Positions 31,744 to 54,916 of a DNA stretch of 64,000 nt are shown here, one piece after another. The DNA lies in NCBI GenBank assembly GCA_021154885.1, contig JAJKHS010000063.1, positions 1 to 64,000 of the forward strand. Reading direction: 5' to 3'. The position numbers were made by a program, and so were the translations under genes. Position 1 is the first letter of the stretch. Every line of letters starts with the position of its first letter. The notes beneath the pieces are model-generated. The model saw nothing but the letters and a program-made list of their open reading frames with translations, was not told the origin of the DNA and made no database searches. The DNA comes from Thermoanaerobaculum sp. Its GTDB lineage: Bacteria; Acidobacteriota; Thermoanaerobaculia; Multivoradales; UBA5704.

Positions 31744-34700
31744 TCAAGGCTCGAGCGGCACCGCCCGCGTCAGCCACCGCGCGACGTAGTGCCGCAGCTC
31801 CGGCGTGTCCGGGAAGGGATCGCCGTAGCGCCGCATGGCGCGGAACGGGAGGGGCTCGACGTGCCGCGCCTCCCAGGTGTTGCGGTCGGCGTCCTTGTCC
31901 CAGCCCTGGCTCTGGAGGAAGACGGTACGGGTCCAGCCTGGCGGGATGGGCGGCAGGCCGCCGGCGGCGAATTCGAGGGCGATCTCGTCGCCGGGGCCCA
32001 TCACCACCGAGCGGTCGTCCGCCGCCGCCAGCAGCTCGCCCACGTCGCCATAGCGGGTGTAATGGCCGGCGAGCGGCAGCCAGGGGGACTCCGGCGTCAC
32101 CCGGCCGTAGTCGTAGCCGTGAGGCCCGTTGGGGGACCGGCGAACGAGAGCCGAGAAGCCCCGGTAGCGCAGCTCGGCCTGCCGGGGCAGGAGGCGAGCG
32201 CGGACTTGAGGAATCTTGTCGGTCACGTCCGCCCGCTCCTGGGTCCAGGCGATCCGGTCCCAGGCCAGCCAGAGAGAGGTGACGATGCGCAACCGGTGAG
32301 CGCCCAGCGGCAACGGCGGCGTGTCCATCACCAGGGTCTTGGTCTTGCCGGCCGGAAAGCCCATGGCGGGAACCAGGATCCGCCAGCCGCCGGCCGTCTC
32401 CACCTCCAGCCGGGGCGGCAGGTAGGGGAGGTCCGGCCGCTGGGCCACGGCGAGGTTCAGGCTGGCGTCCGCGGGGAAGATCCAGCCGTCGAGGAAGAGC
32501 CGGATGGGGGCACCCGGCGCAGCCCCGAGATCGCCGAGGTCGAACGTGAAGGTCCACGGGCGGGCCACCCCCTGATACGGGCTGGGCTCGTAGCCCGAAG
32601 CATAGACCTCGTCGCGGGCGCGGACGCGGGCCGTGACGTCCTCGCCCCTCCCGTCCCAGGCCGCGGCCACCGGGCGGAGACCGCGGGCGGCCAGCACGCC
32701 CACGGGCTGACGCTCCCCGGGCACCACCTTGAGACGGCTCGCCACCTCCACGTCCGCCGGGTGGTCCACCACCCAGAGCCGCACGGCGTCGAAGTAGGCG
32801 GCCTCCCACAGCTCTTCGGTGACGCGCAGGCGGTAAACGCCGTCCACCGGCCGAGCGCCGTCCACCCGCACCAGCTCGTCGGGATCAGCGCCGGCGTAGA
32901 CGCCGGGCGCGACGGGCAGGCCGATGGGCGCGTTCCATAAGAGGTCGGTCACGAAGTCGAAGCGCTGGCCCGTCCAGGCGTAGAGGAAGGGACAGCTCCC
33001 CTTGAGGAGCTGCTCCTCCACCACCCGCTGGTCGACGCCGGGTTGCAGCCGGTCCTGGGGGACGCCGTTGGTCCACACCACCCGCAGCACGTCCGCCGCG
33101 CGCAGTCTGCCGAGGCCGAAGTGGGTGATCCCCGCCGCCGCCTCGCGGAATTGATAGGCCGTGCCGGCCCGCACCTCCAGCACCGCGCCCAGCCCCTGGA
33201 GGTTGTTCTTGCCGCTCCCCGTGGTGAGAGCCCGGAGGCGCACGTCGAGCCAGTGATTCCTGTTGCCTCCCTCGTTGGCCAGGCGGTGGAGCCCGCTCTC
33301 CCCCGCCGCCACCAGGTCGAGGTCGCCGTCGCCGTCCAGGTCGGCCGCCGTCAGGGCAGTGGCGGACGGCGGTCCGCCCTCGACGGCGAGCGGCTGGAAA
33401 GTGGGCGCGGCCGAGGTGCCCCGCTGGCCGAGGACGACGACACCTCCGGGGCCGGCCGCGGCGAGGTCGAGCCGGCCGTCGTTGTCGGCGTCGAAGGCGA
33501 GGACGGCCGTGAAGGGCCTCCCTTGAGGCAACCCCGGCACTGGCCAGGGAGCGAAACGGCCGCCGCCCAGGTTGTGCCAGAGGGCGAGGCCGCCCTCGCC
33601 GGCGGTGATCAGGTCGGGCCAGCCGTCGTTGTCGAGGTCGGCGGCGGCCAGGGCTTCGGCCGGACCCGCCGCGGCGAGACCGGCCGCGGCGGTGACGTCC
33701 ACGAACCGCCCCTGGCGCCGGTTGTCGAGCACGGCGATCCCCCCGCCATGCGCCACGATCAGGTCGAGGTCGCCGTCGCGGTCGAGGTCGCTCGCCACTA
33801 CGGCCCGAATGGCCCGAATCCCCGCGAGGGTCGGAGCAGGAAACGCCTGCTTCCCCACCGCCTCCAGCGGACCCTGGAGGGCGTTGCGATAGAGCTCAAG
33901 CCCGCGACCACCCAATACGAGATCGAGGTCGCCGTCGATGTCGAAGTCGAGCACGGCGCCGGCTGCGCCGGAGGCGGTGGCCAGGCCGGCCGCGGCCGTG
34001 GCGTCCTCGAAGCCGCCGTCCCCCTTTCCCCGCCAGAAGACGGCGCGCTGCGGCCCGTAGCCCACGAGGTCGAGGTGGCCGTCGTTGTCCAGGTCGGCGG
34101 CGAGCAGGCCGGTGATGCCCGCGGCGTCCGGTCCGGGCACGGCTGCCCAGCCCTTGGCCGCGAGGCGAATCTCCAGCCGGGGGAACCGGGGCGGGCCCTC
34201 CGCGGCGGGACCGGCCGCCACCCGCACCAGGTCCGGCCGGTCGTCGCCGTCGAAATCGCCTACCGCCAGGGCGCGGCCCAGCGTCGGATCGGCAGCCAGC
34301 GCCGTGGCCGCGAAGCGCACCGGCACGGGATCGCCCCAGGAGGCCGGCGGCGGCTCGGCGGCGAACCTCTCGACGGGGAGGCCCTGGACGTTGGGAGCGA
34401 GCTCCTTCAGGTCCCGCTGATAGACCGGCGTGGGCTTCAGGGCGTTCTCCAGCCGCAGGGCCGGCACCCGGCCTGAGGCCACGTTCCCGGACTCCAGGGC
34501 GGCCAGCACGGCGGCCAGGGCGGCGGCCGGCACGGGCGGCGCCGGATCGAGGAGCTCGCGGACGCGCAGGAACGCCTGCGTGGCTGCCGCCCGGTCGCCG
34601 GCGGCGATGGCCCGCTGGCCGCTTTGCAGGAGGACCACGACGCTCTCGGGCCGCAGCCTCTGGAGGGCCTTCAAGGCTGCGCCGAGAGCCGCCTCTGCCG

Positions 34701-35178
34701 CGGGACCGGTGAGGCCGGCGGCCTGGTGATAGAGGGCGTATTGGACGTCGACGCGGTCCGGTGCCGCCGTCGCGGCCTGGCGGTAGGCGGCGAGGGCCTC
34801 CGCGTCCTCGCCCGTCCACCGCAGGACGTCCCCGCGAAGGGCCAGCAGGTCGGCCCGGCCTGGAGCCTTGGCGAGGGCCTTGGCGATCCAGCTCCGGGCC
34901 TCCTCGCTCTTCTGCTGGCGCAGGGCCGCGATGGCGAGGTTGGCGTCGGGGAGCGGATCGGCCGGCGTCAAGGAGAGGAGCCGGCGGAAGGTCTCCGCGG
35001 CCTGTGCGGGCTGCTCGTTCTCGAGCTGCGCCAGACCGAGGTTGCGCAACGTGGCGGCCGTCTCCGCCGGAGCTGGAGACGGCGCAGCCGCCGAGGCAAT
35101 CGCGGCAGTCGCGGAAATCGCGGAAATGGCCGCGAAGGCCAGGGCGAGGACGAGGAGACGGCGGAGCACTCTCGGCAT
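31744..35178 (-). CDS. Large secreted TPR plus FG-GAP/ASPIC-UnbV protein
   Basis: A 1144-residue exported protein. The signal peptide (MPRVLRRLLVLALAFAAISA) contains a triplet-repeat-like AISAISATAAIASA. TPR-like helices cover about 40-200. From about 290 there are many FG-GAP/VCBS calcium-binding blades (FDGDDRPDL, LDNDGHLDL, IDGDLDLVL, LDRDGDLDL, LDNDGWPDL, LDGDGDLDL), forming a beta-propeller. An ASPIC/UnbV-type module (FGLGRLRAADVLRVVWTNGVPQ) follows. The last 350 residues (from QLLKGSCPFLYAWTGQRFDFVTDLLWNAP) form an additional domain typical of large CRTAC1-like proteins. It starts one base after the stop of the TPR gene. Role unknown, probably cell-surface binding or assembly. Confidence 0.85.
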   Translation of the reverse strand: MPRVLRRLLVLALAFAAISAISATAAIASAAAPSPAPAETAATLRNLGLAQLENEQPAQAAETFRRLLSLTPADPLPDANLAIAALRQQKSEEARSWIAKALAKAPGRADLLALRGDVLRWTGEDAEALAAYRQAATAAPDRVDVQYALYHQAAGLTGPAAEAALGAALKALQRLRPESVVVLLQSGQRAIAAGDRAAATQAFLRVRELLDPAPPVPAAALAAVLAALESGNVASGRVPALRLENALKPTPVYQRDLKELAPNVQGLPVERFAAEPPPASWGDPVPVRFAATALAADPTLGRALAVGDFDGDDRPDLVRVAAGPAAEGPPRFPRLEIRLAAKGWAAVPGPDAAGITGLLAADLDNDGHLDLVGYGPQRAVFWRGKGDGGFEDATAAAGLATASGAAGAVLDFDIDGDLDLVLGGRGLELYRNALQGPLEAVGKQAFPAPTLAGIRAIRAVVASDLDRDGDLDLIVAHGGGIAVLDNRRQGRFVDVTAAAGLAAAGPAEALAAADLDNDGWPDLITAGEGGLALWHNLGGGRFAPWPVPGLPQGRPFTAVLAFDADNDGRLDLAAAGPGGVVVLGQRGTSAAPTFQPLAVEGGPPSATALTAADLDGDGDLDLVAAGESGLHRLANEGGNRNHWLDVRLRALTTGSGKNNLQGLGAVLEVRAGTAYQFREAAAGITHFGLGRLRAADVLRVVWTNGVPQDRLQPGVDQRVVEEQLLKGSCPFLYAWTGQRFDFVTDLLWNAPIGLPVAPGVYAGADPDELVRVDGARPVDGVYRLRVTEELWEAAYFDAVRLWVVDHPADVEVASRLKVVPGERQPVGVLAARGLRPVAAAWDGRGEDVTARVRARDEVYASGYEPSPYQGVARPWTFTFDLGDLGAAPGAPIRLFLDGWIFPADASLNLAVAQRPDLPYLPPRLEVETAGGWRILVPAMGFPAGKTKTLVMDTPPLPLGAHRLRIVTSLWLAWDRIAWTQERADVTDKIPQVRARLLPRQAELRYRGFSALVRRSPNGPHGYDYGRVTPESPWLPLAGHYTRYGDVGELLAAADDRSVVMGPGDEIALEFAAGGLPPIPPGWTRTVFLQSQGWDKDADRNTWEARHVEPLPFRAMRRYGDPFPDTPELRHYVARWLTRAVPLEP

Positions 35179-35179
35179 T

Positions 35180-36850
35180 CTATGGCGAACCCTGCGCCCG
35201 GCAGGGCTCGCCGTGCTCGTAGAGCGCGAGGCACCGCTGCCGGCGCTGCCGGTCCGGCGAGTCCGGCCCGGGGCTGGCGAGGGCCCGTCGCTGGTGATCC
35301 GCGGCTTCGGCGAAGCGGCCGAGCTCGCCGAGGGCGAGGGCCAGCGCCTCCTCCCGCTCGGCCGTCGGACCGGCGGCGAGCAGGCGCTGGGCGATTCCCA
35401 GGGCCTTGGCACCGTCGCGGACCTCCGGCCGGGACGACGCGGCGAGCACCCGCACCAGGAGCTGGGCGAGCGGCTCGCTGTCCGGCAGGCGGGCGAGCCC
35501 CTCCTCCAGGCAGGCCCGGGCCTCGGCGTCGCGGCCGGCGCGGAGCAGGGCGCTCGCCTGGGCGAGGCGCGGCGCCGCCTCTCCCGGTGCGGCGGCGACC
35601 ACGGCGGCCAGCTCGGCGGCGGCTTCGGCGTGACGACCCAGGGCGGAGAGGGTCTGGGCATGCTGGAACCGGGCCACCGGATCCTCCGGGCTCAGCTTCA
35701 GCAGCCGCTCGTAGGCGTCGAGCGCCCGGGCGGGCTCGCCGGCCGCGGCCAGGGCCTGCCCCAGGTTGAAGAGGGCGTCCCGGGACTCCGGATCGAGGCG
35801 GACGGCGGTCTCCAGGTGCTCGATCGCCTCCCGCCCCGCGCCCCGCGCCGCCAGCATCGTCCCCAGGTTGTAGTGGGCGCGTACGTTGGCCGGTTCCAGC
35901 TCGATGGCCTTGCGGTAGCTCCGCTCGGCGCCGGCCGGATCCCGCAGGCCCGCGAGCGCCACGCCGTAGCCGACCCAGAGCGTGCCATCCCGGGGGTCGG
36001 TCTCCAGGGCCTTGCGGAAGGCCTCGGCCGCCTCGGCGAAGCGCCTGGCACGCAACGCCGTGGTGCCGGCCACCACGAGCTGGCGGCTGCCGGCGCCGAG
36101 CGCGGCCACCTGCTCCAGCAGCGGATCGGGGAAGGTGACCCGGCCGTCGCCGTACCCCGCGAGGGCCGACCGCGCGTCGTCGAGCCGCCCCAGCCTGCGA
36201 TAGGCCAGCGCCAGGGGAGAGCGGACCTCCGAGGCGCCGGGCTGGCTCGCGAGCACGGCTTCGAAGTGTCCGGCCGCGACGCGGGCGTCGCCGTTGGCGA
36301 GCGCCACCCGGCCGAGGCCGAAGTGGGCCGCCGCCGCGGCGCCGGCGAGGGGCAGGGCGGCCTCGAACGCCTGGCGCGCGGCCTCCGTCTGTCCGAGCTG
36401 GAGCCGCACCTCGCCGAGGCGGATCAGGGTGGCCGGATCGCCCGGCCGCAGCTCCAGGGCACGGCCGAGGCGCCCCTCGGCGGCCGCGAAATCGCCCGTC
36501 ACCTGGAGCATGGCGCCAAGGGTGTAGGCCCAGCGGGGATCGGCGGGAGCGAGTCGCGCGGCGTTCTCGAAACAGGCCCGGGCCGCCGCGTTGAGCTTGT
36601 AGAGCGCGTACAGCCGGCCGCACCGGCCAAAGGCCTCGGCCAGCTCCGACGAGGACGAGGACGATCCGGCGGGAAGCCGCTGGATCGCCTCCTCCAGGGT
36701 CCGCCGCGCCGCTTCGAGCTGCTCGCGGACGGCGGGCTCCATCGCCGAGGTGTCCACTGCCGGGATCGCCTGAATCGCCGGAATCGCCCGGGGAGCCGGC
36801 GGAGCCGCGAGCAGGCCGGTCAGCAGCAGGGCAGGGAGGGCCAGGATCAC
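35180..36850 (-). CDS. Secreted tetratricopeptide repeat protein
   Basis: A 556-residue protein with a short signal peptide (VILALPALLLTGLLAAP) and about 12-13 tandem TPRs across residues 55-540 (for example AHYNLGTMLAARGAGREAIEHLETAVRLDP and ALFNLGQALAAAGEPARALDAYERLLKLSP). It starts at GTG 36848-36850, overlapping the TGA of the upstream CRTAC1 gene in a GTGA arrangement; translation coupling is likely. Its stop is one base before the ATG of the next gene. TPRs are protein-binding scaffolds; in this operon the obvious partners are the three FG-GAP/ASPIC proteins. Confidence 0.85.
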   Translation of the reverse strand: MILALPALLLTGLLAAPPAPRAIPAIQAIPAVDTSAMEPAVREQLEAARRTLEEAIQRLPAGSSSSSSELAEAFGRCGRLYALYKLNAAARACFENAARLAPADPRWAYTLGAMLQVTGDFAAAEGRLGRALELRPGDPATLIRLGEVRLQLGQTEAARQAFEAALPLAGAAAAAHFGLGRVALANGDARVAAGHFEAVLASQPGASEVRSPLALAYRRLGRLDDARSALAGYGDGRVTFPDPLLEQVAALGAGSRQLVVAGTTALRARRFAEAAEAFRKALETDPRDGTLWVGYGVALAGLRDPAGAERSYRKAIELEPANVRAHYNLGTMLAARGAGREAIEHLETAVRLDPESRDALFNLGQALAAAGEPARALDAYERLLKLSPEDPVARFQHAQTLSALGRHAEAAAELAAVVAAAPGEAAPRLAQASALLRAGRDAEARACLEEGLARLPDSEPLAQLLVRVLAASSRPEVRDGAKALGIAQRLLAAGPTAEREEALALALGELGRFAEAADHQRRALASPGPDSPDRQRRQRCLALYEHGEPCRAQGSP

Positions 36851-38592
36851 GGTACCGCGGCTCCGCTCCCCTCGCGCAAGGTCGTGTAGGTCCCCGCCGG
36901 CACGTCCTTGAAGGCCTCGACCCGGCCGCTCGGCCAGTGCACCACCACCCGCTCGACCTGCGGCGTGTCGCCGAGGCCGAAGAGGACCCGCGGATCGTTG
37001 GCGGAGGCGTAGCTGCCATCGGTGCGCACCCGGCGCCAGAGCGGGGGCTTCCCCAGGCGGCGCAGCTCCACCCGGGCGCCCAGCGCGTCGCGGCCGGGCT
37101 TGCCGGTCAGCAGCCGCAGCCCCAGCCACGGCCGCCGATTGCCGAGCTGATTGATCAGCACGCGCGCCGGGCCGTCGTTGTTGCTCACCACGACGTCGGT
37201 GTCGCCGTCGTTGTCGAGGTCGCCGAAGGCGGCGCCGCGGCTGACCTCCGGAATGGCGAAGACGGCGCCCGCCGGCTTGCCGACCTCCTCGAAGCGGCCG
37301 TTGCCCAGGTTGTGGAAGAGCTGTTTCTCCTGGCGCAACGGCAGGGGGTCCCCGGCCCGCGCCTGCTCCTCGATCTTCTTGACGGCGCCGTTGACCACCA
37401 GGAGGTCGAGCAGCGAGTCGTTGTCGTAGTCGAGCCAGGCCATACCGAAGCCCGTGAGCTTCCAGGAGGGGGTCTGCAGGCCGCTCGCCCGCGACACGTC
37501 CTCGAAGAGCCCGGTGCCGTCGTTGCGGTAGAGGGTGATGCCCTCGCCCGTCAGGTTGTCCATCACCAGGTCCTCGTCGCCGTCGCCGTCGTAGTCGCCG
37601 GCGTCCACGCCCATGCTGGCCTGCGGCCGGCCCTCGCCGCTCACGCCGGCGCCGGCGAGCAGGGCGTCGTTCTTGAAAGTGCCGTTGCGCTGATTGATCC
37701 AGAGCTGGTTCGGGGTCTCGTCGTTGGCCACGTAGAGGTCGATCCAGCCGTCGCCGTTGAAGTCGGCGGTGCTGACGCCGAGCGCCGGGCCGTACTCGGC
37801 GGCGATCCCCGCCTTGGCGGTGACGTCCTCGAACGTGCCGTCGCCGCGGTTGTGCAGCAGACGGCCGGGCACGGCGTCGGCCGGCACCGGGCCGCAATAG
37901 TCGGGGGCGCCGGCCGGAGTGCGGCACGGCCTGGCGGTCTCGAACGAGAACTTCAGGTAGTTGCCGACGAAGAGGTCGAGCCAGCCGTCGCGGTCGTAGT
38001 CGAAGAAGGCGGCGGGCACGCTCCAGCGCGGATCGTCGGCCCCGGCCTTGAGCGTGACCTCGGTGAAGGTGACCCGGCCGGCGGCGTCGCGGCCGTTGTT
38101 GTGCCAGAGCTGGTTCGAGCCCAGGCAGGTGACGTAGAGGTCGGTCCAGCCGTCGTTGTCGAAATCGCCGGCGGCCACCCCTATGCCCCCCCTGCAAGAC
38201 TCGCCGAGGCGCAGGCCGCTCTCCGCCGTCACGTCGGTGAAATGGAGCGTGCGCTCGCCATGGGGTCCCACCACGAGGTCATTACGATAGAGCCGGTGGT
38301 TGAGAACGGCGGCGGGCTTCGCCGCCTGAGGACCTGCCTGAGGACCAAGCGGGCCGCCCTGGACGAAGAAGACGTCCAGGTCGCCGTCGTCGTCATAGTC
38401 GAAAAGGGCGACGCCGGAGCCCATGATCTCCGGCGTGTACAGCCGTCCGGACATGCCGTTGACGTGGACGAAGTCCACCCCCAGCTCCTTCGCCCGGTCC
38501 ACGAAGACCTCCTCCGGAGCGGCCTTGGGCGGCGCCGCCGGAGGGGCCGCCGGAAAGAGGAAGAGGAGGAGCGCGCCGAGCAGACTGCGCAT
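36847..38592 (-). CDS. CRTAC1-family secreted FG-GAP/ASPIC-UnbV protein
   Basis: A 581-residue exported protein with a signal peptide (MRSLLGALLLFLFPAAP). FG-GAP/VCBS repeats with DxDxDG calcium loops recur (FDYDDDGDLDVFF, FDNDGWTDLYV, YDRDGWLDLFV, FNGDGWIDLYV, YDGDGDEDLVM, LDNDGDTDVVV), each followed by a 'QLWHNNG/LLHNRGDGTF' strand. The C-terminal ASPIC/UnbV domain (ALGARVELRRLG, then FGLGDTPQVERVVVHWPSGRVE) is complete. The family is homologous to vertebrate CRTAC1 and common in Acidobacteriota and Planctomycetes; function is unestablished. The ATG directly follows the stop of the upstream paralogue. Confidence 0.92.
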   Translation of the reverse strand: MRSLLGALLLFLFPAAPPAAPPKAAPEEVFVDRAKELGVDFVHVNGMSGRLYTPEIMGSGVALFDYDDDGDLDVFFVQGGPLGPQAGPQAAKPAAVLNHRLYRNDLVVGPHGERTLHFTDVTAESGLRLGESCRGGIGVAAGDFDNDGWTDLYVTCLGSNQLWHNNGRDAAGRVTFTEVTLKAGADDPRWSVPAAFFDYDRDGWLDLFVGNYLKFSFETARPCRTPAGAPDYCGPVPADAVPGRLLHNRGDGTFEDVTAKAGIAAEYGPALGVSTADFNGDGWIDLYVANDETPNQLWINQRNGTFKNDALLAGAGVSGEGRPQASMGVDAGDYDGDGDEDLVMDNLTGEGITLYRNDGTGLFEDVSRASGLQTPSWKLTGFGMAWLDYDNDSLLDLLVVNGAVKKIEEQARAGDPLPLRQEKQLFHNLGNGRFEEVGKPAGAVFAIPEVSRGAAFGDLDNDGDTDVVVSNNDGPARVLINQLGNRRPWLGLRLLTGKPGRDALGARVELRRLGKPPLWRRVRTDGSYASANDPRVLFGLGDTPQVERVVVHWPSGRVEAFKDVPAGTYTTLREGSGAAVP

Positions 38593-40560
38593 TTATTTCC
38601 GGGGGTTCCGCGGCTGCTCCGTGACGTCGAGCGTGCGGCCGGAGGCGATGGGCCCCGCGACCGTCTGCTTGATGCCGGACGGCCAGTCCACCTCGACGCG
38701 ATCGGCCTGCGTCGCGTCCCCGAGCCCGAAATAGAGCGGCAGGATGCTGTGCGACAGGTAGCCGGAGGAGCCGTCCATGAATTGCGTGTACGTCTTGCCC
38801 CCAGTGATAACCCGTACCGTGGCGCCGAGGCCGTTGCGGTTCGAGGTCCTGCCAATGAGGCGGACCTGGAGGTAGTGGACCGGCCGCTTCTGCGCCAGAT
38901 CGCTCACCAGGACCTGCGGCCTGGCGTTGAACTCCTGGGTGACGACGTCCAGATCGCCGTCGCCGTCGAGGTCGAAGATCACCGAGGAACGGGTGCCGAG
39001 CGTACCGGTGACGGTGACGCGGCCGGTGCGCCCCTGGCAGAGCTTGTGGGCCTTGTCCTCCCCCGAGCAGTCGAGGGTGAACCAGGGCTGGCGGGTCTTC
39101 CCGCCGCGGCGCGGCTCGATGCCCAGCAGGAGCTCGGCGTCGAGGAAACCCGTCCCCTGGTTGTTGATCATCAGCGAGTTGACGCCGTAGCGGAAGGGAT
39201 AGTTCATGCTGGCCGTGATCAGGACGTCCTGCCAGCCGTCGGCGTTGAGGTCGCCCACGCTCACGCCCCAGGGCCAGTAGTTCTCCAGCCCGAGGTCGGC
39301 CGAGATCTCCTTGAACGTGCCGTTGCCCAGGTTCTTCCAGAAGGCGTTGCCGAAGATGTGGTTCTCCGGGTGATCGAAGAACTTCTCCGCGCCTTTGAAA
39401 AGGAATTTGACCTTCTCGTCCTCGGGAGCGACCTCCTTGACCATGTCCGAGTGCATGTCGGTCACGAACAGGTCCAGGTTGCCGTCGTTGTCGTAATCGA
39501 ACGACTTGATGCCCATGGCGCCCCAGGGGGTCTTGGGAAAGAATTCGCGCGTGCGGTCCACGAACCGCTTGCCTCCCTGGTTCTCCCAGTAGTGGTTGTC
39601 CCCCTGCATGTTGAGGACGTAGAGATCGGGGAAGCCGTCGTGATTGAAGTCGACCAGGCTGGCGTCGCCGCTCCACGAGCCGTCGAGGAGCCCCAGGGCC
39701 GCGGAGACGTCCTGGAAACGGTTGCCGCCGAGGTTGTGATAGAGGACACTGCGCTCCGTACGGTCCGGATGGAGGTGACCGGAGAACGCATCCGCCATGG
39801 CGAGGTAGTAGCCTCCCCGCCCCTTCACCTCGGTCGTGTACTTGCCGACGTTGACGAGGAAGAGGTCGAGCAGACCGTCGCCGTCGTAGTCCAGGAACAC
39901 CGCGGCCGAGGAGTGGCCGGAGTAGTTGACGCCGGCCGCCTTCGAGATGTCCTTGAAGTGGCCCTTGCCGTCGTTCTCGAACAGGAAGTTGCCATGGCGC
40001 ACCGTGGTCACGTAGAGGTCCTGGTCGCCGTCGTTGTCGACGTCGGCGAAGGAGGCGGAGACCGAGATCATGCCGGGCAGGCCCACGCCGGCCTCGGCGG
40101 TGACGTTGCGGAACTTGCCGCCTCCCAGGTTCTTCCACAGCTCGTTGCCGCCCAACTGGCTGGTGAAGTAGAGGTCCACGAGCCCGTCGCCGTCCACGTC
40201 CGCGGCGGCGACGCCGTTGCCGTGATCGTAGTGGGCCGCCTTGTACGTCTTGCCGGCGTCGTCCACGATCTGGTTGACGAACGTGATGCCGCTCTCCTCG
40301 ACGCGATCGGTGAATTTGAAGTCGATGGGGACCTTGAACCGGTCCGCGGTCGCCCGCTGCGCCTGCGCGCGCGCTTCCAGGGTCTGCGCGCCCACGTCGA
40401 CGGGCGGCACGTCGATCACCGTGCCGTCCGTGCCTGGAGCCGGCGCGCCCTGGGGCGGCGCTCCATGCTCATGCGGCTGCTGTCCGAGCGAGGCCAGGGC
40501 CACCCCGAGGGCGAAGAGAGGGACGAGGATCAAGCGAAGGAGGAGAGAGTGCTTTTTCAT
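38593..40560 (-). CDS. CRTAC1-family secreted FG-GAP/ASPIC-UnbV protein, first in operon
   Basis: A 655-residue exported protein. The signal peptide is MKKHSLLLRLILVPLFALGV; a short linker contains HEHGAPPQ. The propeller has VCBS blades with VDGDGLVDLYF, VDNDGDQDLYV, YDGDGLLDLFL, FNHDGFPDLYV and YDNDGNLDLFV, and the C-terminal ASPIC/UnbV domain contains GLGATVRVITGG, FGLGDATQADRVEVDWPSGIKQ. I start at ATG 40558-40560; the frame is open 14 codons further. It is the first gene of a four-gene minus-strand operon (40560 to 31744) whose members abut or overlap. Confidence 0.9.
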   Translation of the reverse strand: MKKHSLLLRLILVPLFALGVALASLGQQPHEHGAPPQGAPAPGTDGTVIDVPPVDVGAQTLEARAQAQRATADRFKVPIDFKFTDRVEESGITFVNQIVDDAGKTYKAAHYDHGNGVAAADVDGDGLVDLYFTSQLGGNELWKNLGGGKFRNVTAEAGVGLPGMISVSASFADVDNDGDQDLYVTTVRHGNFLFENDGKGHFKDISKAAGVNYSGHSSAAVFLDYDGDGLLDLFLVNVGKYTTEVKGRGGYYLAMADAFSGHLHPDRTERSVLYHNLGGNRFQDVSAALGLLDGSWSGDASLVDFNHDGFPDLYVLNMQGDNHYWENQGGKRFVDRTREFFPKTPWGAMGIKSFDYDNDGNLDLFVTDMHSDMVKEVAPEDEKVKFLFKGAEKFFDHPENHIFGNAFWKNLGNGTFKEISADLGLENYWPWGVSVGDLNADGWQDVLITASMNYPFRYGVNSLMINNQGTGFLDAELLLGIEPRRGGKTRQPWFTLDCSGEDKAHKLCQGRTGRVTVTGTLGTRSSVIFDLDGDGDLDVVTQEFNARPQVLVSDLAQKRPVHYLQVRLIGRTSNRNGLGATVRVITGGKTYTQFMDGSSGYLSHSILPLYFGLGDATQADRVEVDWPSGIKQTVAGPIASGRTLDVTEQPRNPRK

Positions 40561-40630
40561 GGCGATTTTCCCGGCGCGCAAGTATACGCCACCGTTCCCC
40601 AACGTTTAGACGGTAGACTCCGCGACTGCC

Positions 40631-42626: not shown

Positions 42627-42731
42627 AGCAAGGGACTTCAGGGACAGCAGGGACTTCAAGGACAAGAGAGAATCCGCCGAGATCGGGCCTTCTTCGTCCC
42701 TGAAGTCCCTGCTGTCCCTGAAGTCCCTGCT
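42627..42731. repeat. 9-bp-periodic hairpin element, copy 1
   Basis: The left arm (42627-42663) reads AGCAAGGGACTTC then AGGGACAGCAGGGACTTCA; the right arm (42696-42731) is its near-perfect reverse complement (GTCCCTGAAGTCCCTGCTGT and so on), so about 36 bp can pair around a 32-nt loop. Each arm has a 9-bp period (GGGACnnCA). It lies between the convergent peroxiredoxin and NFACT genes and starts right after the first gene's stop, so it could terminate both transcripts. Related copies lie at 43258-43364, 52889-52995 and 60845-60936. Confidence 0.85.
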
Positions 42732-43257: not shown

Positions 43258-43364
43258 AAGACAGGGACAGCAGGGACCGCAAGGAGAGCAGGGACAAGAA
43301 CACCGTAGCCGAGCCTGAAGCTTTCTCGTCCCTGCTGTCCCTGGTGTCCCTGCTGTCCTTGTCT
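43258..43364. repeat. 9-bp-periodic hairpin element, copy 2
   Basis: Left arm 43261-43297 (ACAGGGACAGCAGGGACCGC, AGGAGAGCAGGGACAAG) and right arm 43327-43364 (CGTCCCTGCTGTCCCTGGTG, TCCCTGCTGTCCTTGTCT) form an imperfect long hairpin with 9-bp period. It fills the gap between the FKBP gene (its 3' end at 43388) and the NFACT gene start. The segment between its right arm and the FKBP stop (TTCTGCCGCGCCTCC) resembles a similar segment beside copies 1 and 3. Confidence 0.8.
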
Positions 43365-47970: not shown

Positions 47971-48008
47971 AGCAGGACGCCCCGGCCAGGCTCGGCGGGG
48001 CGGCTGCT
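47971..48008. terminator. Bidirectional intrinsic terminator
   Basis: AGCAG-GA-CGCCCCG, an 11-nt loop, CGGGGCG-G-CTGCT form a stem of 7 plus 5 bp with a short internal mismatch, located between the convergent M16 and DUF2283 genes. On the plus strand it runs into TTTCAGGCCTTCTTCTTTG, which is moderately T-rich. Confidence 0.55.
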
Positions 48009-48009
48009 T

Positions 48010-48336
48010 TCAGGCCTTCTTCTTTGCCGGCCGCCTCCGCGTTGGCACGGCAGAGGCCCGCGACTCCGCCTCTCCCGGAAGAGCTGGGAGCCCTGCCGTG
48101 CGGGACGAGGCCTCCAGAATGGTGATTCCCACCAGTTCCTTGCCCTGGTAGCGGAGCAGAAGACCCTCGTCGGTCATCCTGGTGTCCTTCGCCTTCTGAG
48201 GGCGCCGGAAGCTGATGTACAGGATGTCGGCCTCCTTGTCATAGTCCACCGAAAAATGCTCCATCGGGAACTTCAGGAGAAGCGGTACGGCTTCGGTTAC
48301 GGTCTGGACCGTCTGTGGCTCTAAGCTCGCTTCCAT
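48010..48336 (-). CDS. DUF2283-domain protein (probable antitoxin-like)
   Basis: A 108-residue protein with the DUF2283 pattern: YDKEADILYISF, then a strand with GLLLRYQGKELVGITILEAS. The tail is basic (RRRPAKKKA). DUF2283 proteins are small and often encoded beside toxin-like proteins. Here the gene upstream on the same strand overlaps by 16 bp and encodes a small possible nuclease, so the two may form a toxin-antitoxin pair; that is inference. GAAGGAAGG precedes the ATG at 48334-48336. Confidence 0.8.
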   Translation of the reverse strand: MEASLEPQTVQTVTEAVPLLLKFPMEHFSVDYDKEADILYISFRRPQKAKDTRMTDEGLLLRYQGKELVGITILEASSRTAGLPALPGEAESRASAVPTRRRPAKKKA

Positions 48337-48620
48337 ATCGCCTTCCTTCGGTCGATGGTGCGACTGAAATAGGCCGTGATGATGAATCCATCGGTGCGCG
48401 AGACCTTGCGGTAGACGACGCACAGGTGGCGCTGCCGACCGTAGCTGCGAACCGCGATCAGGGAGCCTTTGTAGCCCGGTACAATGATGTCAGGACTGGC
48501 CACGGTCTCCAAGACCTCATCGTAGTAGCCTGCCACCTCATCATGATTCTCAACGACGTGAAGCCACCTCTCCGCGGTAAGGCGGATGGGCACGCCGTCA
48601 ATCGACTCGGTGACCTCCAC
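48321..48620 (-). CDS. Small possible toxin paired with DUF2283
   Basis: A 99-residue protein, starting at GTG 48618-48620. The sequence PIRLTAERWLHVVENHDEVAGYYDEVLETVASPDIIVPG with a later LCVVYRKVSRTDGFIITAYFS resembles small alpha/beta proteins annotated as phage-derived RelE/barnase-like nucleases (PBECR-type), in which His and Glu on the first helix and later basic residues matter. The family call is tentative. It overlaps mazF by 23 bp and the DUF2283 gene by 16 bp, so all four minus-strand genes (mazE, mazF, this, DUF2283) form one unit. Confidence 0.6.
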   Translation of the reverse strand: MEVTESIDGVPIRLTAERWLHVVENHDEVAGYYDEVLETVASPDIIVPGYKGSLIAVRSYGRQRHLCVVYRKVSRTDGFIITAYFSRTIDRRKAIWKRA

Positions 48621-48966
48621 GTGGCAGCTTCTCGCGGTCCGTGCTCCAGAGGACATCGTAGCACGCGCTGCCGGCTGCCGCACCGGAGCGCAGGTTGAAA
48701 CGCAGACCGGGTGAGGCCTGGGGAGGAGGCACATCGTAGACGTTGGCCACCGAAGCCTTCGGCAATCCCGTCGCTTGTCGGGAGAGCTGAACGTTGCCCG
48801 GCAGGTCCGCCAGGTGGAGACGGCTGGTCAGAGGCACGACGAGAAACGAGCGGACCCGAGGCTCTCGCACGGCATTGCTCTGGACGACGACGGCCGGCCT
48901 GCGCTTATCCACCCGCACCCACCAGACTTCGCCCCGGCCAGGCAGGGGTTCACCAGTCGTCGTCAC
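48598..48966 (-). CDS. mazF: MazF/PemK-family endoribonuclease toxin with in-frame insertion
   Basis: A 122-residue toxin. Its core GRGEVWWVRVDKRRPAVVVQSNAVR, VRSFLVVPLTSRL and LPKASVANV fits MazF (mRNA-cleaving), with the RPAVVVQ and VVPLTS strands characteristic. The normal continuation after SVANV is a short strand and TDREKL; here 26 extra residues (PPPQASPGLRFNLRS and more) separate them because of a 78-bp insertion flanked by ACATCGTAG repeats. The start is GTG 48964-48966, overlapping the antitoxin gene by 17 bp. The insertion may have disabled the toxin. No catalytic assignment was possible beyond the fold motifs. Confidence 0.8.
   Translation of the reverse strand: MTTTGEPLPGRGEVWWVRVDKRRPAVVVQSNAVREPRVRSFLVVPLTSRLHLADLPGNVQLSRQATGLPKASVANVYDVPPPQASPGLRFNLRSGAAAGSACYDVLWSTDREKLPRGGHRVD
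48653..48739. repeat. 78-bp insertion in mazF with 9-bp direct repeats
   Basis: ACATCGTAG occurs at 48653-48661 and again at 48731-48739, bracketing a 69-bp segment. Removing one repeat plus the segment restores an uninterrupted MazF reading (VANVYDVLWSTDREKL). The 78-bp length keeps the frame. The repeats look like a target-site duplication, or a product of slippage between repeats. Confidence 0.7.
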
Positions 48967-49195
48967 GGTACTCCTCGGCCATCCGAGCTTGCTGGTATTG
49001 CCGCCAGTGCCCCTCGTCGTCGGCAACGTCCCAACCGTGTTGGTCGATGTACCGCCGGACCTGCGCCTGTACCTGCTCCGCCTCGAGCAGGCTGGCCAGC
49101 AAACCGGACCGGGTGGTGCCGCGACGCTGCGCTTCTTCGTCGGCAAAAGCCAGGAGATTCGCGGGCAGGGAGACTCCGACCTTCATGCGCGGCAT
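48950..49195 (-). CDS. MazE-like ribbon-helix-helix antitoxin
   Basis: An 81-residue protein. The N-terminus MKVGVSLPANLLAFADEEAQRRGTTRSGLLASLLEAE is a CopG/MetJ-type ribbon-helix-helix (strand then two helices). The acidic C-terminal tail (EYRDDDW) would wrap the toxin. It is paired with the MazF-type toxin downstream, overlapping by 17 bp. A palindrome ATACCGCGGTAT lies 17 bp upstream of the ATG and is a plausible self-binding operator. Confidence 0.85.
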   Translation of the reverse strand: MPRMKVGVSLPANLLAFADEEAQRRGTTRSGLLASLLEAEQVQAQVRRYIDQHGWDVADDEGHWRQYQQARMAEEYRDDDW

Positions 49196-49211
49196 GGTAT
49201 CACAGGCGGGA

Positions 49212-49223
49212 ATACCGCGGTAT
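49212..49223. promoter_or_regulatory. Palindromic operator candidate upstream of mazEF
   Basis: ATACCGCGGTAT is a perfect 12-bp palindrome (extended GGAATACCGCGGTATCCC with one mismatch) located 17 bp upstream of the antitoxin start. Ribbon-helix-helix antitoxins bind such palindromes to repress their own operon. Confidence 0.45.
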
Positions 49224-49248
49224 CCCCATCTTCCTACCGGCTCGGTGA

Positions 49249-49791
49249 CTAGAGTCTCGACACGATCTTCGACGCCAGAACCTTTTCCTGCGCGAGCCCG
49301 TGATCTGGCAAGCGGTCGATCTTGGGACCGTTCAACACGAGGAGAAATCCTTTGCTCCCCTTGCGGACGTAAAGGAGAGAGCCGTTTGAGCCATTCAGGT
49401 TCAGCGCTTCATCGCCTACGCCAGATACCGACGCGGGAACACTGCGGCTGGTGGCCGCTGTTTTCATCGCTTCCCATTCGCCCACGGTCAGAGCGGCGCC
49501 GGCCGAGAAGTCCTCCGCGGAGCGCGTGCACATCCCCAGAGTGCCGTCTTCCGCGGTTTTCGGAAGCGCTTGCCCCACGGCGACCTCAGCCTCTGGCTGT
49601 GGCATCAATTCACAGGCCTTGATCGGTGAACCGGCAGGACTGCCGGCCTTGGCGGGGCCGGACTTGCCGGCCTCGGTGACGCCTTGTGCCGGCTTGTCGA
49701 CCCCGCACGCACCAAGCGTCACCGCCGTCACTAAAACAGCAGTCCACAGCACCGCCTTCAAATGGGAGTATGATGTAATAAGCTTTCGCAT
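49249..49791 (-). CDS. Lipoprotein, DUF3558-like
   Basis: A 180-residue lipoprotein with a lipobox LGAC (Cys at about 29). The mature part begins with a low-complexity linker (PAQGVTEAGKSGPAKAGSPAGSPI) and then a CELM-type segment (IKACELMPQPEAEVAVGQALP), C-containing (GMCTRS), ending with a hydrophobic strand (GSLLYVRKGSKGFLLVLNGP). This pattern (two conserved cysteines around a 'CxLL/M...A...G' segment) is DUF3558-like, membrane-anchored and of unknown function. It stands alone between two toxin-antitoxin modules. Confidence 0.72.
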   Translation of the reverse strand: MRKLITSYSHLKAVLWTAVLVTAVTLGACGVDKPAQGVTEAGKSGPAKAGSPAGSPIKACELMPQPEAEVAVGQALPKTAEDGTLGMCTRSAEDFSAGAALTVGEWEAMKTAATSRSVPASVSGVGDEALNLNGSNGSLLYVRKGSKGFLLVLNGPKIDRLPDHGLAQEKVLASKIVSRL

Positions 49792-49991
49792 GATCCTCCT
49801 TCAGGAACGCTGCATCCGAGGCTCACGACCTGTGAGGGATCAGTGTCGAATTTTCTACAGTAGACCCCGCTGTCATTTTTGTCAAACGGCTATGAATCGA
49901 CGTTGTCCGGGAAGGCGATCCTCGCCACCGGTGCACGTGTGCCAGGGGTCGCCCAGGAATCAAAGACCGCGTCCCTCAGCAGTCGACATCC

Positions 49992-50008
49992 GTAGCACGA
50001 TGTGCTAC
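49992..50008. promoter_or_regulatory. Operator-like inverted repeat upstream of vapBC
   Basis: GTAGCAC-GAT-GTGCTAC is a perfect 7-bp inverted repeat with a 3-nt spacer, ending 9 bp before the vapB ATG at 50018. Phd/VapB antitoxins typically bind inverted repeats overlapping their own promoter, so this is a likely autoregulatory site. Confidence 0.5.
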
Positions 50009-50017
50009 CGTTGGAAA

Positions 50018-50272
50018 ATGGCTGAATCCATCACTCAACGCGAGCTCCGCAACGACAGCGGCGAGATCATGCGCCGGCTCGACCAGGGAGAGTCCTTCGT
50101 CATCACTCGCAACGGTGTGCCGGTAGGCGAGCTCACTCCCCTGCGGCGCCACCGATTCGTGCCAGCGGCGGCAGTCGTTGCCATCTTCAGGAATGCGCCC
50201 GCCATCGACCCTGGCCGCTTCCGTGCCGATGTCGATGCGTGGGCTGGCCAGGACGTTTTACCCGATGCCTGA
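50018..50272 (+). CDS. vapB: Phd/YefM-family antitoxin (VapB)
   Basis: An 84-residue antitoxin. The N-terminal domain (ESITQRELRNDSGEIMRRLDQGESFVITRNGVPVGELTP) is the Phd/YefM fold that binds operator DNA; the C-terminal segment (FRADVDAWAGQDVLPD) would bind the PIN toxin. The ATG at 50018 follows a GTAGCAC inverted repeat. Its last 8 bp overlap the toxin start codon, a typical translational coupling. Confidence 0.9.
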   Translation: MAESITQRELRNDSGEIMRRLDQGESFVITRNGVPVGELTPLRRHRFVPAAAVVAIFRNAPAIDPGRFRADVDAWAGQDVLPDA

Positions 50273-50675
50273 CCGGCGGCCTGCTCGCGGGATCCTCGAC
50301 ACCTCGGTGGTCATCGACCTCGAACACATCGAGCCTTCACGGCTTCCGATCGAGGTTGCCGTAAGCGCCATCACGATGGCCGAGCTTGCCGCCGGTCCGC
50401 ACGCCACACCAGACCCCGAAGAGCGGGCGCGCCGCCAGGACCGGCTCCAGCGCGCGGAAGCCGCATTCGATCCTCTGCCCTTCGACGCCGAGGCGGCACG
50501 CGCTTACGGGAGGGTTTATTCCGCTGTGGTAGCCGCGGGACGCAAGGCGAGAGGGGCTCGTGCCATCGACCTCCTCCTTGCAGCGGCCGCGTGCGCTGCC
50601 GGCCTGCCGCTCTACACCCGCAACCCGGACGATTTCCGCGCGCTCGGCGGTCTCGTCGAGGTCGTAGCCGTGTGA
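50265..50675 (+). CDS. vapC: PIN-domain toxin (VapC)
   Basis: A 136-residue ribonuclease toxin. The acidic catalytic residues are in place: Asp in ILDTSVVID (about 12), Glu in TMAELAAG, Asp in ARAIDLLLAAAA, and the final LYTRNPDDF typical of the PIN C-terminus. VapC toxins cleave tRNA or rRNA loops when antitoxin is lost. Start ATG 50265 overlaps vapB by 8 bp. Confidence 0.92.
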   Translation: MPDRRPARGILDTSVVIDLEHIEPSRLPIEVAVSAITMAELAAGPHATPDPEERARRQDRLQRAEAAFDPLPFDAEAARAYGRVYSAVVAAGRKARGARAIDLLLAAAACAAGLPLYTRNPDDFRALGGLVEVVAV

Positions 50676-50695
50676 GCCCACCTCGGCGTACGGCG

Positions 50696-51499
50696 ATGAA
50701 CAATCCCTATCTCGATCTGACCGAGGAGCTCAACCGTGGCCGCCTGCGGACCCTCCTCAGCTCGGGCCAGGCGGTGGTCGTCCATCGGCTGGCCATCATG
50801 AGCAAGGACGGCGACTGGATCCTGCGCGAGGATGCTGAAGCCGCCGAGCATGTGCTGGAGGTGCTTTCTGAGCACGGCGCGCGCTACCGCTTCGGAGCGC
50901 CCCTGGACCTGCGCTGGCTTGCCGGAGGCTGGAGCTCCCACCTCGAGCTCCGCCGGGAGGTTTTGCGGATACGAACCGACTTCGTCACCCGACCGCCGCG
51001 GATCGCGCCGGAGCAGTTGGCTCAAATGTGGGAGGAGGCTCAGGCAACGGGCGATGACGTCGTCCGCGTGGAGCCCTTGGCCGCGATGAAGCTGACGAAC
51101 CGGGACAAGGACTACGCTGTCGTGGGTGAGCTGGCTCGCTTGATGACCGATCCTCGCTCCCAGCTCCGGTACTCCCGCAGCAGCCGCGACCTGATCAAGC
51201 TCGCCGAAGAGCACCCTGAAGCGCTGGCGGAGGCGACGCGGCAGAGACCGCTCCTGGCCCGCATCGGCGAAGGCAGAGAGGCTCTGGAGGAAGCTCTCGA
51301 CCGCGAACGCCGGGCCCTCATCCGCGCCAACGAGGAAAGACTGGCCCGGTACATGGCTGCCTCCGAAGACTGGGCCAAAATCTGGCCGGAGGTTCAGCGC
51401 CAGATCGAGGGCCTGTCCTTGCCGGAGGCGCATCGCCTGGTGGTTTCTCGCGCCGAAGGGGTCCTTCCTTTCGAGCCGGCCCAAGGAGCTGACTCATGA
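50696..51499 (+). CDS. Putative nucleotidyltransferase-like protein, unknown cassette part 1
   Basis: A 267-residue soluble protein. Residues 1-100 (LNRGRLRTLLSSGQAVVVHRLAIMSKDGDWIL, then RYRFGAPLDLRWLAGGWSSHLEL and LRIRTDFVTRPPRI) resemble nucleotidyltransferase-like domains in which a G-[GS] motif, Asp-x-x-W and later Asp serve as metal ligands. Residues 190-250 are a long charged helix. It starts 20 bp after vapC stops and overlaps the next gene by 4 nt (ATGA). I do not recognise a named family; a defence or toxin role is possible from position. Confidence 0.65.
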   Translation: MNNPYLDLTEELNRGRLRTLLSSGQAVVVHRLAIMSKDGDWILREDAEAAEHVLEVLSEHGARYRFGAPLDLRWLAGGWSSHLELRREVLRIRTDFVTRPPRIAPEQLAQMWEEAQATGDDVVRVEPLAAMKLTNRDKDYAVVGELARLMTDPRSQLRYSRSSRDLIKLAEEHPEALAEATRQRPLLARIGEGREALEEALDRERRALIRANEERLARYMAASEDWAKIWPEVQRQIEGLSLPEAHRLVVSRAEGVLPFEPAQGADS

Positions 51500-51768
51500 C
51501 CGATCTTCGCGACGAATTCCTGAGCGAGGAGGATCTCGATCTGCGCAACCTTTCGCAGGATGAGCTCATCGCCTACTGGAACCTCTGGCTCGAACAGGCC
51601 CAGGCCACGAACGATCTCGACGAGGCTCTGTACTCCCACGGCGTCTTCGAACGCGATCCGGCGGTGGCGGGGAAAAACCGGGAACCTTCAAGCGCCGCGC
51701 CGGCACGATCTCGATCGGAAGCGCCTTCACCTGGCCGAGGCGTTCCTCCGCCTGCGCCTCCCCGGTGA
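51496..51768 (+). CDS. Small partner of the 50696 protein, C-terminus altered
   Basis: A 90-residue protein that begins TDLRDEFLSEEDLDLRNLSQDELIAYWNLWLEQAQATNDLDEALYSHGVF, a helical, acidic sequence. Its ATG overlaps the stop of the preceding gene by 4 nt. After SHGVFERDP the sequence turns into a Pro/Arg-rich read-through (SSAAPARSRSEAPSPGRGV) that is antisense to the vapC remnant, so the native end has probably been lost at a deletion junction near 51,660-51,700. Function unknown; it likely forms a complex with the upstream protein. Confidence 0.6.
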   Translation: MTDLRDEFLSEEDLDLRNLSQDELIAYWNLWLEQAQATNDLDEALYSHGVFERDPAVAGKNREPSSAAPARSRSEAPSPGRGVPPPAPPR

Positions 51769-51943
51769 GTTGGAGGAGACGATAGAAGACCTCGCCGAGA
51801 TTGACCACGTTCAGCAGCAGGCGGAGATTGCCGCTTTGAGCGCGGCGGAGATAGCGGCGCATCGCCGTAGCGCCGGGTTCCTCGGCTCGCAGGAATGCCA
51901 GGATCGCCCAGGAATCAACGACCGCGACGTTGCCAACGCTCAT
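51566..51943 (-). pseudogene. Truncated PIN-domain toxin (VapC remnant)
   Basis: The N-terminal two thirds of a PIN toxin are recognisable: VVDSWAILAFLRAEEPG with the first Asp, and VVNLGEVFYRLLQ with the Glu. After LPIEIVPARR (about residue 82) the sequence becomes antisense to the plus-strand 51496 gene, and the third and fourth acidic residues are missing. The usual length is about 130. The partner antitoxin (51915-52193) is intact and overlaps by 29 bp, so only the toxin is broken, by a deletion near 51,690-51,700. Confidence 0.75.
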
Positions 51944-52193
51944 CCGCTTCGATTTCGGCCCGGTGCTCGGCTTCGAGGTCCGCGACGGGATTCCCCGGGA
52001 GATCCTTCAAGCAGCTATAGAGGACATCAATGGAGTCCTCGGCCTCGAGCGGAGTCAGGCGCGCGGCACCATCGCCCATGATCTCGACGGCGAGTTGAGT
52101 ACCCGACGTCCACCGGAGTTGCTCGCGGACGGGCTTGGGAATGACGACCTGACCCTTGCTGGTCACACGGGTTGCGGGCTTCATGAGCGTCAT
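51915..52193 (-). CDS. vapB: AbrB-family antitoxin (VapB)
   Basis: A 92-residue protein with an AbrB/MazE SpoVT domain: TRVTSKGQVVIPKPVREQLRWTSGTQLAVEI. The C-terminal tail (LEAEHRAEIEADERWQRRG) is charged as in toxin-binding regions. Overlaps the truncated VapC gene by 29 bp. With the toxin broken, it may now be an orphan repressor of its own operon. An internal start at 52184 (MKPATRV) is possible. Confidence 0.85.
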   Translation of the reverse strand: MTLMKPATRVTSKGQVVIPKPVREQLRWTSGTQLAVEIMGDGAARLTPLEAEDSIDVLYSCLKDLPGNPVADLEAEHRAEIEADERWQRRGR

Positions 52194-52195
52194 CT

Positions 52196-52885
52196 TACCA
52201 AGCCTGCTGGCCGAGGACGACGCGGAACGGACCCCTGAGGTCCTCCTGCGGCACCTCGTCGAGCAGTGCGGCGCCGAGACGGGCTTCGTCGTGGTCCGCG
52301 AGGACGGCTCCTACCAGCAGAAGCTCGAGGTCGGCGGCGAGCGCGGCCGGCGCAGCGACCTGAAGCGCCAGTTCAGCCGCACCCCCTCGTCCGTGAAGTG
52401 ATCGCCACCGGCGCCCTCCTCTACCTGCCCAACCTGATCGAGGATCCCCGCTTCGCCTCCGGCGAGTCGCCCAGCACGACTTCGAGGGGATCGTCACCCG
52501 CGATCCACGGATGATGGAGCTGCTGCGCGTCGTCGCCCAGGTCGCCGGAGCGGACGCCCCGATCCTCGTCCTCGGCGAGACCGGCACCGGCAAGGAGCTG
52601 ATCGCCCGCGCCCTGCACGTCAACAGCACGCGCCGCGGCCGGCCGTTCGTCACCGTCCATTGCTCCGCCCTGCCGGGCACGCTTCTCGAGTCCGAGCTCT
52701 TCGGCCACGTCGCCGGGGCCTTCACGGATGCGAAAAAGGATCGTCCCGGCTGCCTCGCCTCGGCTCACGGCGGCACGCTGTTCCTCGACGAGGTGGGCGA
52801 GATCCCCATCGAGGCGCAGGCCAAGCTGCTGCGCTTCCTCCAGTTCGGCGAGATCCAGCGCCTGGGGTCGGACGTGGCAGAAAAC
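52196..52885 (+). pseudogene. Decayed sigma-54-dependent transcriptional activator (GAF-AAA+)
   Basis: Three frames together reconstruct part of a sigma-54 activator. Frame 1 reads the GAF start (TPEVLLRHLVEQCGAETGFVVVREDG), frame 3 the next part (LVREVIATGALLYLPNLIEDPRFASGES), and frame 2 the AAA+ domain with GETGTGKELIARAL (Walker A), ESELFGHVAGAFTDAKK (GAFTGA-like loop, here GAFTDA) and GGTLFLDEVGEIP (Walker B). Shifts occur near the C-run at 52381-52389 and near 52475, where about 100 GAF residues also seem deleted. The frame ends at the hairpin element at 52889. No start, no C-terminal HTH: clearly non-functional. Confidence 0.85.
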
Positions 52886-52888
52886 CGA

Positions 52889-52995
52889 AGACAGGGACAG
52901 CAGGGACACCAGAGACAGCAGGAACGAAAAATCTCCGGTTTCGACTAATTTCATGTCCCTGCTGTCCCTGAAGTCCCTGCTGTCCTTGCTGTCCT
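52889..52995. repeat. 9-bp-periodic hairpin element, copy 3
   Basis: Left arm 52889-52925 (AGACAGGGACAGCAGGGACA, CCAGAGACAGCAGGAAC) and right arm 52954-52995 (GTCCCTGCTGTCCCTGAAGT, CCCTGCTGTCCTTGCTGTCC) with a loop near 52926-52953. It directly truncates the sigma-54 activator relic. The downstream flank (TCTGCCGCGCAGGCTCCTAG at 53020-53039) matches the flank of copy 1 (CCGCGCAGACTCCTAA). Confidence 0.8.
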
Positions 52996-53035
52996 GCACC
53001 AACGCTGCCTACGAGCTTTTCTGCCGCGCAGGCTC

Positions 53036-53235
53036 CTAGCCGTCCATCGGGTCTTTGACGACCGCGATGGCCGGGTCGACGACGATGTTGGCGGAACGCG
53101 TCAGTTTCTGATGGCTCACGGAGTCGCTAACATCAAGATCAAGGTCATAGCTGACTGCCTCTCGATGATGGCAGCGCAGCCCGATCCGGCAGTGCCGCGA
53201 CTCGAAGGCAGGCGCAATCGGCCGAAGGCAGGCTG
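53036..53235 (-). pseudogene. C-terminal remnant of an unknown protein
   Basis: On the minus strand a stretch ends SYDLDLDVSDSVSHQKLTRSANIVVDPAIAVVKDPMDG and a TAG at 53036-53038. This reads like the natural C-terminus of a beta-rich protein, but upstream (towards 53250) it runs into the minisatellite and no start or family is visible. It may be a fragment of a gene cut by the repeat region. I cannot name it. Confidence 0.35.
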
Positions 53236-53264
53236 TGGCAGACGGCTCATCGGACGTGGCGGGC

Positions 53265-53880
53265 GTCTTACCGCACACGCTTGACGAATCGCCGGACGTG
53301 GCAGGCGTGTCGCCGGGGATGGCAAGCGTTTTTCAGGACGTGGCAGATCTCAGATCGGGCATAGCAGGCGTCTCGCCGGGCGTGGCAGGCGTCTCACCGG
53401 GCGTGGCAGGCGTTTTACAGGACGTGGCAGGTCTCTCCCCGGGCGTGGCAGGCGTCACGCCGGGCATGGCAGGCGTTTTACAGGACGCGGCAGGCGTGTC
53501 GCCGGACGTGGCAGGCCTGTCACCGGGCATGGCAGGCGTTTCACCAGGCGTGGCAGGCGACGCGCCGAGCGTGGCAGACATCTCACCGGACGTGACCGAC
53601 GACTCGTCGGGAGTGACCGATATCTCGTCGGACATGGCAGACATCTCAAAGGGCATGCCCGGTCAACCGCCGGCCGTGTCCAGTGAACCGTCGGACGTGC
53701 CCGGTGAGGCGCCGGGAACGTCCGGTGAACCGTCGGACGTGCCCGATAAGACGCCGGGCGTGGCAGGCAAGACACCTGACGTGTCCGGCACGACGCCTGA
53801 CGTGTCGGGCAAGAGGTCGGGTGTGCCCGGCAAAACGCCGGGCGTGCCGGGCAACGCGCCCGGCGCAGCCGGGCTCGCAA
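53265..53880 (+). repeat. 21-bp minisatellite reading as heptapeptides
   Basis: About 25-30 units of 21 bp (for example GGCGTGGCAGGCGTCTCACCG) fill this space between the activator relic and the GNAT gene. On the plus strand they give heptapeptides GVSPGVA, GVLQDVA, GLSPGVA, later EPSDVPG and KTPGVAG, in a frame open over 53235-54038; on the minus strand TPGETPA. No ribosome-binding site or signal peptide supports translation. The array decays gradually to the right. It is the second 21-bp array in the window (the first is at 10445-10702). Confidence 0.8.
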
Positions 53881-53889
53881 CGACCCGCT

Positions 53890-54432: not shown

Positions 54433-54588
54433 TCGCCCTCCCTCCGCCGAGAGATGATCCGCCGCCACTCTTCGATCATGTATTTCCATGCCTTGCCCTT
54501 CTACCCAGGCGAAGCAGACACTTCCCCATAGGGGCTCGCATCGCGAGCAATGCGGCTCGTGTATCCAAGCCCCTGAAAGGGAGAAGCT

Positions 54589-54789: not shown

Positions 54790-54916
54790 GCTACCGCATA
54801 TGGAAGGGGGCGCTGATCGACTCCAGCTCCCCCGCCTTTTCAGCTATACTACCGAGATCGCATTTTAGTGTTCACCGGCCTAAGTCTATTTTTGCTGTGT
54901 TCAAGGGAAGCGCGAA

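Follow-up and report, generated by a model that had tools for sequence, protein, structure and literature searches.

Four neighbouring genes (A to D), arranged head to tail on the minus strand from position 40560 to 31744 of the analysed stretch of 64,000 nucleotides (hereafter the window), encode propeller and tetratricopeptide repeat (TPR) proteins in an uncultured soil Acidobacterium. A recurrent propeller-TPR pair, made up of B and C, plus a separately conserved gene D accounts for the evidence better than a dedicated four-part complex. That the B-C products form exported, ligand-binding complexes outside the cytoplasm, with A as a further propeller of the locus and D independent, appears to us about evenly balanced between right and wrong. 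Bacterial CRTAC1-type proteins are numerous and, to our knowledge, have no assigned role; since a protein for co-purification with each propeller is indicated by its conserved partner gene (TPR or pentaheme-TPR), that role becomes testable.

Layout of the locus and its products

The four open reading frames and the contacts between them, as described in the sequence-only reading, were all confirmed (Table 1). Chance is an improbable source of these frames, given the full-length orthologs of D and the homologs of A, B and C across the order. The TAA of A abuts the ATG of B (38593/38592, 0 bases), GTGA is common to B and C (36847-36850, a 4-base overlap), and a single base (35179) lies between the stop of C and the ATG of D. 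Gene A begins with ATG at 40560, the alternative start of its reading frame being a TTG at 40602. No terminator-like site was found by scanning inside the A-D unit, and a consensus scan of the 70 bases that separate A from the divergently oriented MFS gene returned no sigma-70-type site. Within the window, no glycan enzyme, transporter or other clue to a substrate lies beside A-D.

Table 1. Coordinates of genes A to D, of the segments of protein D and of the adjoining intergenic space
Feature	Position	Strand	Description
Gene A	38593..40560	-	655 aa; FG-GAP propeller with 7 DxDxDG-like loops, C-terminal ASPIC/UnbV, hydrophobic N-terminus
Gene B	36847..38592	-	581 aa; FG-GAP propeller, C-terminal ASPIC/UnbV
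Gene C	35180..36850	-	556 aa; TPR protein, predicted exported; GTG start
Gene D	31744..35178	-	1144 aa; TPR, propeller, weak ASPIC and C-terminal region without annotation
D, residues 39-260	34399..35064	-	helical TPR-type solenoid (Pfam, model); TPR structures among PDB fold matches
D, residues 290-640	33259..34311	-	FG-GAP propeller with DxDxDG-like loops (Pfam, model, fold matches)
D, residues 642-720	33019..33255	-	degenerate ASPIC; 23.4 bits
D, residues 722-1144	31747..33015	-	conserved all-beta region without known family
A/MFS intergenic space	40561..40630	.	70 bases, MFS gene divergent; sole A-D space long enough for a promoter

Searches against Pfam identified FG-GAP repeats together with an UnbV_ASPIC domain in A (4.6e-16) and B (2.3e-17), and TPR repeats only in C, whose matches are to generic TPR and TPR-protein models. 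Three ASPIC propellers had been claimed; A and B are such proteins, whereas in D the protein scan gave a strong FG-GAP match, a weak TPR match and no listed ASPIC domain, and the ASPIC match of D in the genome profile scan, which counted 8 such matches in the host genome, falls exactly on the Pfam cut-off. About seven DxDxDG-like loops are present per propeller in A, B and D. The assignment to the CRTAC1 type holds, as the solved CRTAC1 chain 9etn is both a match of B (1e-16) and the best PDB match of the predicted fold of D. Secretion, also proposed earlier, is likely for the A-D proteins, judging from the hydrophobic N-termini of the window proteins and from lipobox forms among homologs of B, C and D (both being pattern matches); the window's own C has no lipobox by this pattern, and some of its homologs have one.

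Several other features of the window were recorded. Short 9-base tandem repeats (GTCCCTGAA / GTCCCTGCT) lie beside genes at 42696-42731 and 43328-43358, and the regions encoding the signal peptides of C and D likewise appear 9-base periodic by eye. An open reading frame for a cyanophycin-synthetase-like protein (N-terminal domain, ATP-grasp, Mur ligase) occupies 2829-5579 and adjoins a peptidase S51 frame at 5590-6465; by clustering, the frames at 14573-17269 and 17373-18314 resemble this pair, and a NACHT protein with an NNH1 domain and leucine-rich repeats (7171-10320) is encoded between the two. Positions 48000-55800 contain fewer open reading frames with a good coding score than the rest of the window.

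The B-C pair and the question of a four-gene unit

Neighbourhoods were compared across 72 genomes of the order, many of them fragmented assemblies. Homologs of B occur in 67 of these genomes, with up to 18 per genome, and those of C in 58. Among the matches listed for four well-assembled genomes, 14 of the 18 C homologs have an ASPIC gene directly upstream on the same strand, at a distance of at most 335 bases, an adjacency expected by chance at about 0.001 each. A 4-base overlap identical to that between B and C of the window is found in half of the pairs compared (10/20). Over these 20 pairs, which were drawn from loci chosen for good matches, the distances of B and C are correlated (Mantel r 0.32, permutation p 0.0006), shared ancestry contributing to the correlation. 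The host genome itself harbours a second B-C pair on contig C142 (L064). For B and C, the coupling put forward in the sequence-only reading is thus borne out, since most of the order's genomes contain such a pair, with partners that co-diverge. Literature searches found no paper describing a propeller-TPR pair.

The four genes as a whole fare differently. Homologs of A (23/72 genomes, 54-63% identity) are in several cases located within 10 kb of a B-C pair, and yet no genome of the order besides the host carries A and D on one contig (72 searched, many of them fragmented). The complete A-B-C-D set was encountered in none of the relatives examined; the order of the foursome is seen only in the host genome, which agrees with the first part of what the sequence-only reading gave as a refutation, whereas the order of the B-C pair recurs. 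A congener (G001) has D and the MFS gene in synteny with the window, but A-B-C are absent between them and their place is taken by one TPR gene and one ASPIC gene, the latter 90% identical to another locus (C65) of the host genome; the A ortholog of the congener sits on a different contig. We therefore consider it highly improbable that A-D make up a single fixed operon for a stoichiometric four-part surface complex, the interpretation originally given to their contacts. The same-strand spacing of 0, -4 and 1 bases, the lack of an internal terminator-like site in our scan and the proximity of A homologs to B-C pairs would agree with such an operon, but in the mapped relatives D occurs away from the other three genes, A and D share no contig in any other genome searched, and a different gene set occupies the interval between D and the MFS gene in the congener. 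As a fixed complex, A-D was rejected on the neighbourhoods of relatives, this gene swap included. With no conserved foursome and a repeated B-C pair, it is the pair that constitutes the unit worth studying.

In relatives, the neighbours of B-C pairs include receptors of the CarboxypepD_reg/Plug/OMP_b-brl_4 type as well as sulfatase-TPR and GDSL-TPR proteins. In two genomes, 10/24 OMP_b-brl_4 genes had an ASPIC gene at a distance of no more than 15 kb, versus 2.1 expected, half of the enrichment in G014/G068 coming from weak OMP matches (5/17 versus 1.5 with strong matches only); two further genomes gave 3/8 versus 0.85 and 4/13 versus 0.82. In the host genome, no ASPIC gene has an OMP_b-brl_4 (PF25183) gene within 40 kb, the nearest one on a common contig being more than 40 kb away. 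Pairing with a TonB-dependent receptor was consequently rejected as a general rule, as it is seen in relatives and absent in the host.

Gene D, predicted folds and the pentaheme pair

Gene D is conserved independently, in single copy and for the most part on its own. One strong copy is present in about 50 of the 72 genomes of the order and two in none; full-length orthologs share 49-73% identity across the order, and a Thermoanaerobaculia record contains D at 50% identity. At the mapped D loci of relatives, A, B and C are absent beside D, and one conserved neighbour is the gene for DNA polymerase I (L043). A tree built from the C-terminal region gives full support to the D-proper group and places the window's D as sister to the G001 copy; the D family tree does not show the haem-linked D genes as one clade. 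In one family of the order (f9), D, B, C and the pentaheme gene described below are mostly missing together, which represents a single lineage and not independent evidence.

The earlier description had omitted that D is a TPR-propeller fusion with a C-terminal region of 420 aa lacking a Pfam family. The model of the whole protein (mean pLDDT 85, pTM 0.70) displays a helical N-terminal solenoid, a propeller, an ASPIC domain and a beta-rich C-terminal region, the last of which reaches pTM 0.88 when modelled alone. This region contains invariant GSCP and GWxKDxDxN motifs, and its mean column identity is 56% versus 44% for the whole protein. It matched no Pfam family in 27 members and no PDB entry by sequence, and its fold matches in the PDB are weak, involving carbohydrate-binding (CBM-like) and jelly-roll folds; assigning it a function from solved relatives was for these reasons abandoned. 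Gene D thus defines a conserved region without any family model.

For the complete D model, the best fold match after CRTAC1 (9etn) is to integrin alpha and to PVL-type lectins that bind GlcNAc, and these three matches suggest a ligand-binding fold. On the explanation we favour, the locus would combine a recurrent exported pair, consisting of a seven-bladed CRTAC1-type propeller (B) and a TPR solenoid (C), with an additional propeller (A) and an independent D. B and C would be exported together, and the propeller of B would dock on the solenoid of C to yield an extracytoplasmic complex, with a ligand, for instance a peptide or glycan, bound on the propeller face and partner proteins on the TPR surfaces. 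TonB-dependent outer-membrane receptors are probably among these partners in some relatives. D could perform the role of B-C in a single chain and need not belong to an A-B-C assembly. A role in nutrient binding is what we infer from the fold and from the neighbours found in relatives. The union of TPR and ASPIC propeller in the single chain of D, and the pentaheme form of the pairing described below, likewise speak for a propeller-TPR complex; the distance of the host's ASPIC genes from any receptor gene and the lack of substrate clues beside A-D count against the favoured explanation.

The same likeness to integrin alpha and CRTAC1 would also suit adhesion or surface-coat proteins with integrin-like propellers and no dedicated substrate, the expansion of which would provide varied surface contacts. 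Many divergent paralogs per genome and the exchange of cassettes at the A-D locus are compatible with this scenario, which we nevertheless judge improbable, as it leaves the conserved 1:1 TPR partner, the co-divergence and the conserved pentaheme pairing unexplained.

This last pairing involves a protein of ~950 aa with five CXXCH motifs, a Cytochrome_C554 domain and TPR, encoded by one copy in most genomes of the order. An ASPIC gene directly follows the pentaheme/TPR gene at 29 of 37 loci, 14 of them with a 4-base overlap (L061:2747-7303 in G000:C100 is an example, with 36 further loci). D-family genes adjoin the pentaheme pair in records from Acidobacteriota, Gemmatimonadota and Planctomycetota, and are also located beside the pentaheme gene in G003, G016, G022 and G033; at L070:4953-19194 (G003, same family), four ASPIC genes in a row are accompanied by a D-like gene and the pentaheme gene. 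A published example from other bacteria has a CRTAC1 gene flanked by homologs of hydrazine synthase subunits (PMC12758564). These observations would be in line with propellers that partner, in a structural role, electron-transfer proteins outside the cytoplasm. The ancestral unit would then be a pentaheme/TPR cytochrome with an ASPIC propeller (and a D-type protein), and A-D would be haem-free derivatives still acting on redox partners. Against this, A-D possess no CXXCH motif and have no recognised multihaem gene as a neighbour, D-proper adjoins the pentaheme pair at just one mapped locus (L045, in convergent orientation), and haem-free TPR proteins partner most ASPIC genes of the order. We regard the redox explanation as unlikely for A-D, albeit a live rival to the propeller-TPR complex with a ligand.

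Taken more broadly, and quite tentatively, the data could point to an undescribed, widespread class of machines that act outside the cytoplasm and are built on an obligate partnership of ASPIC propeller and TPR. Such a class would come in three forms: a haem-free TPR form (B-C, many copies per genome), a pentaheme-TPR form (a single-copy core, putatively a redox complex) and the single-chain D with its candidate new C-terminal domain family.

Comparison with known systems

A first parallel is provided by the CRTAC1/ASPIC-UnbV (PF07593) FG-GAP proteins, with which A and B share the succession of propeller and ASPIC domain, and to which B is related by sequence and D by predicted fold. In vertebrate CRTAC1, an EGF-like domain follows ASPIC. 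No EGF family was detected by Pfam in A, B or D, and these proteins are therefore members of the CRTAC1 family and not CRTAC1 orthologs. They further differ in the obligate-looking pairing with a TPR gene and, for D, in the additional TPR and the 420-aa unannotated region. Expansion of ASPIC/UnbV paralogs is on record for Solibacter (PMC3174227), and Poribacteria contain ASPIC/UnbV in multiple copies (PMC3909097).

A second parallel is SusC/SusD, the nutrient-uptake pairs of Bacteroidota, SusD being itself a TPR-containing protein (PMC2954216). In both cases a predicted exported protein of TPR fold is encoded beside a ligand-handling partner, many paralogous copies exist per genome, and receptors are enriched nearby, here in relatives. 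Unlike in SusC/SusD, the partner of C is a propeller and not a barrel, and no receptor gene lies beside A-D or any ASPIC gene of the host. C produced no match to a SusD family profile in Pfam and was rejected as a SusD/RagB member.

The third comparison is with hydrazine-synthase-like clusters (PMC12758564). No multihaem gene was recognised beside A-D, and the pentaheme protein of the order is of another, TPR-bearing type; what the two systems have in common is a propeller gene kept beside multihaem proteins, annotated as CRTAC1 with FG-GAP repeats in those clusters and represented here by the pentaheme/TPR and ASPIC pair.
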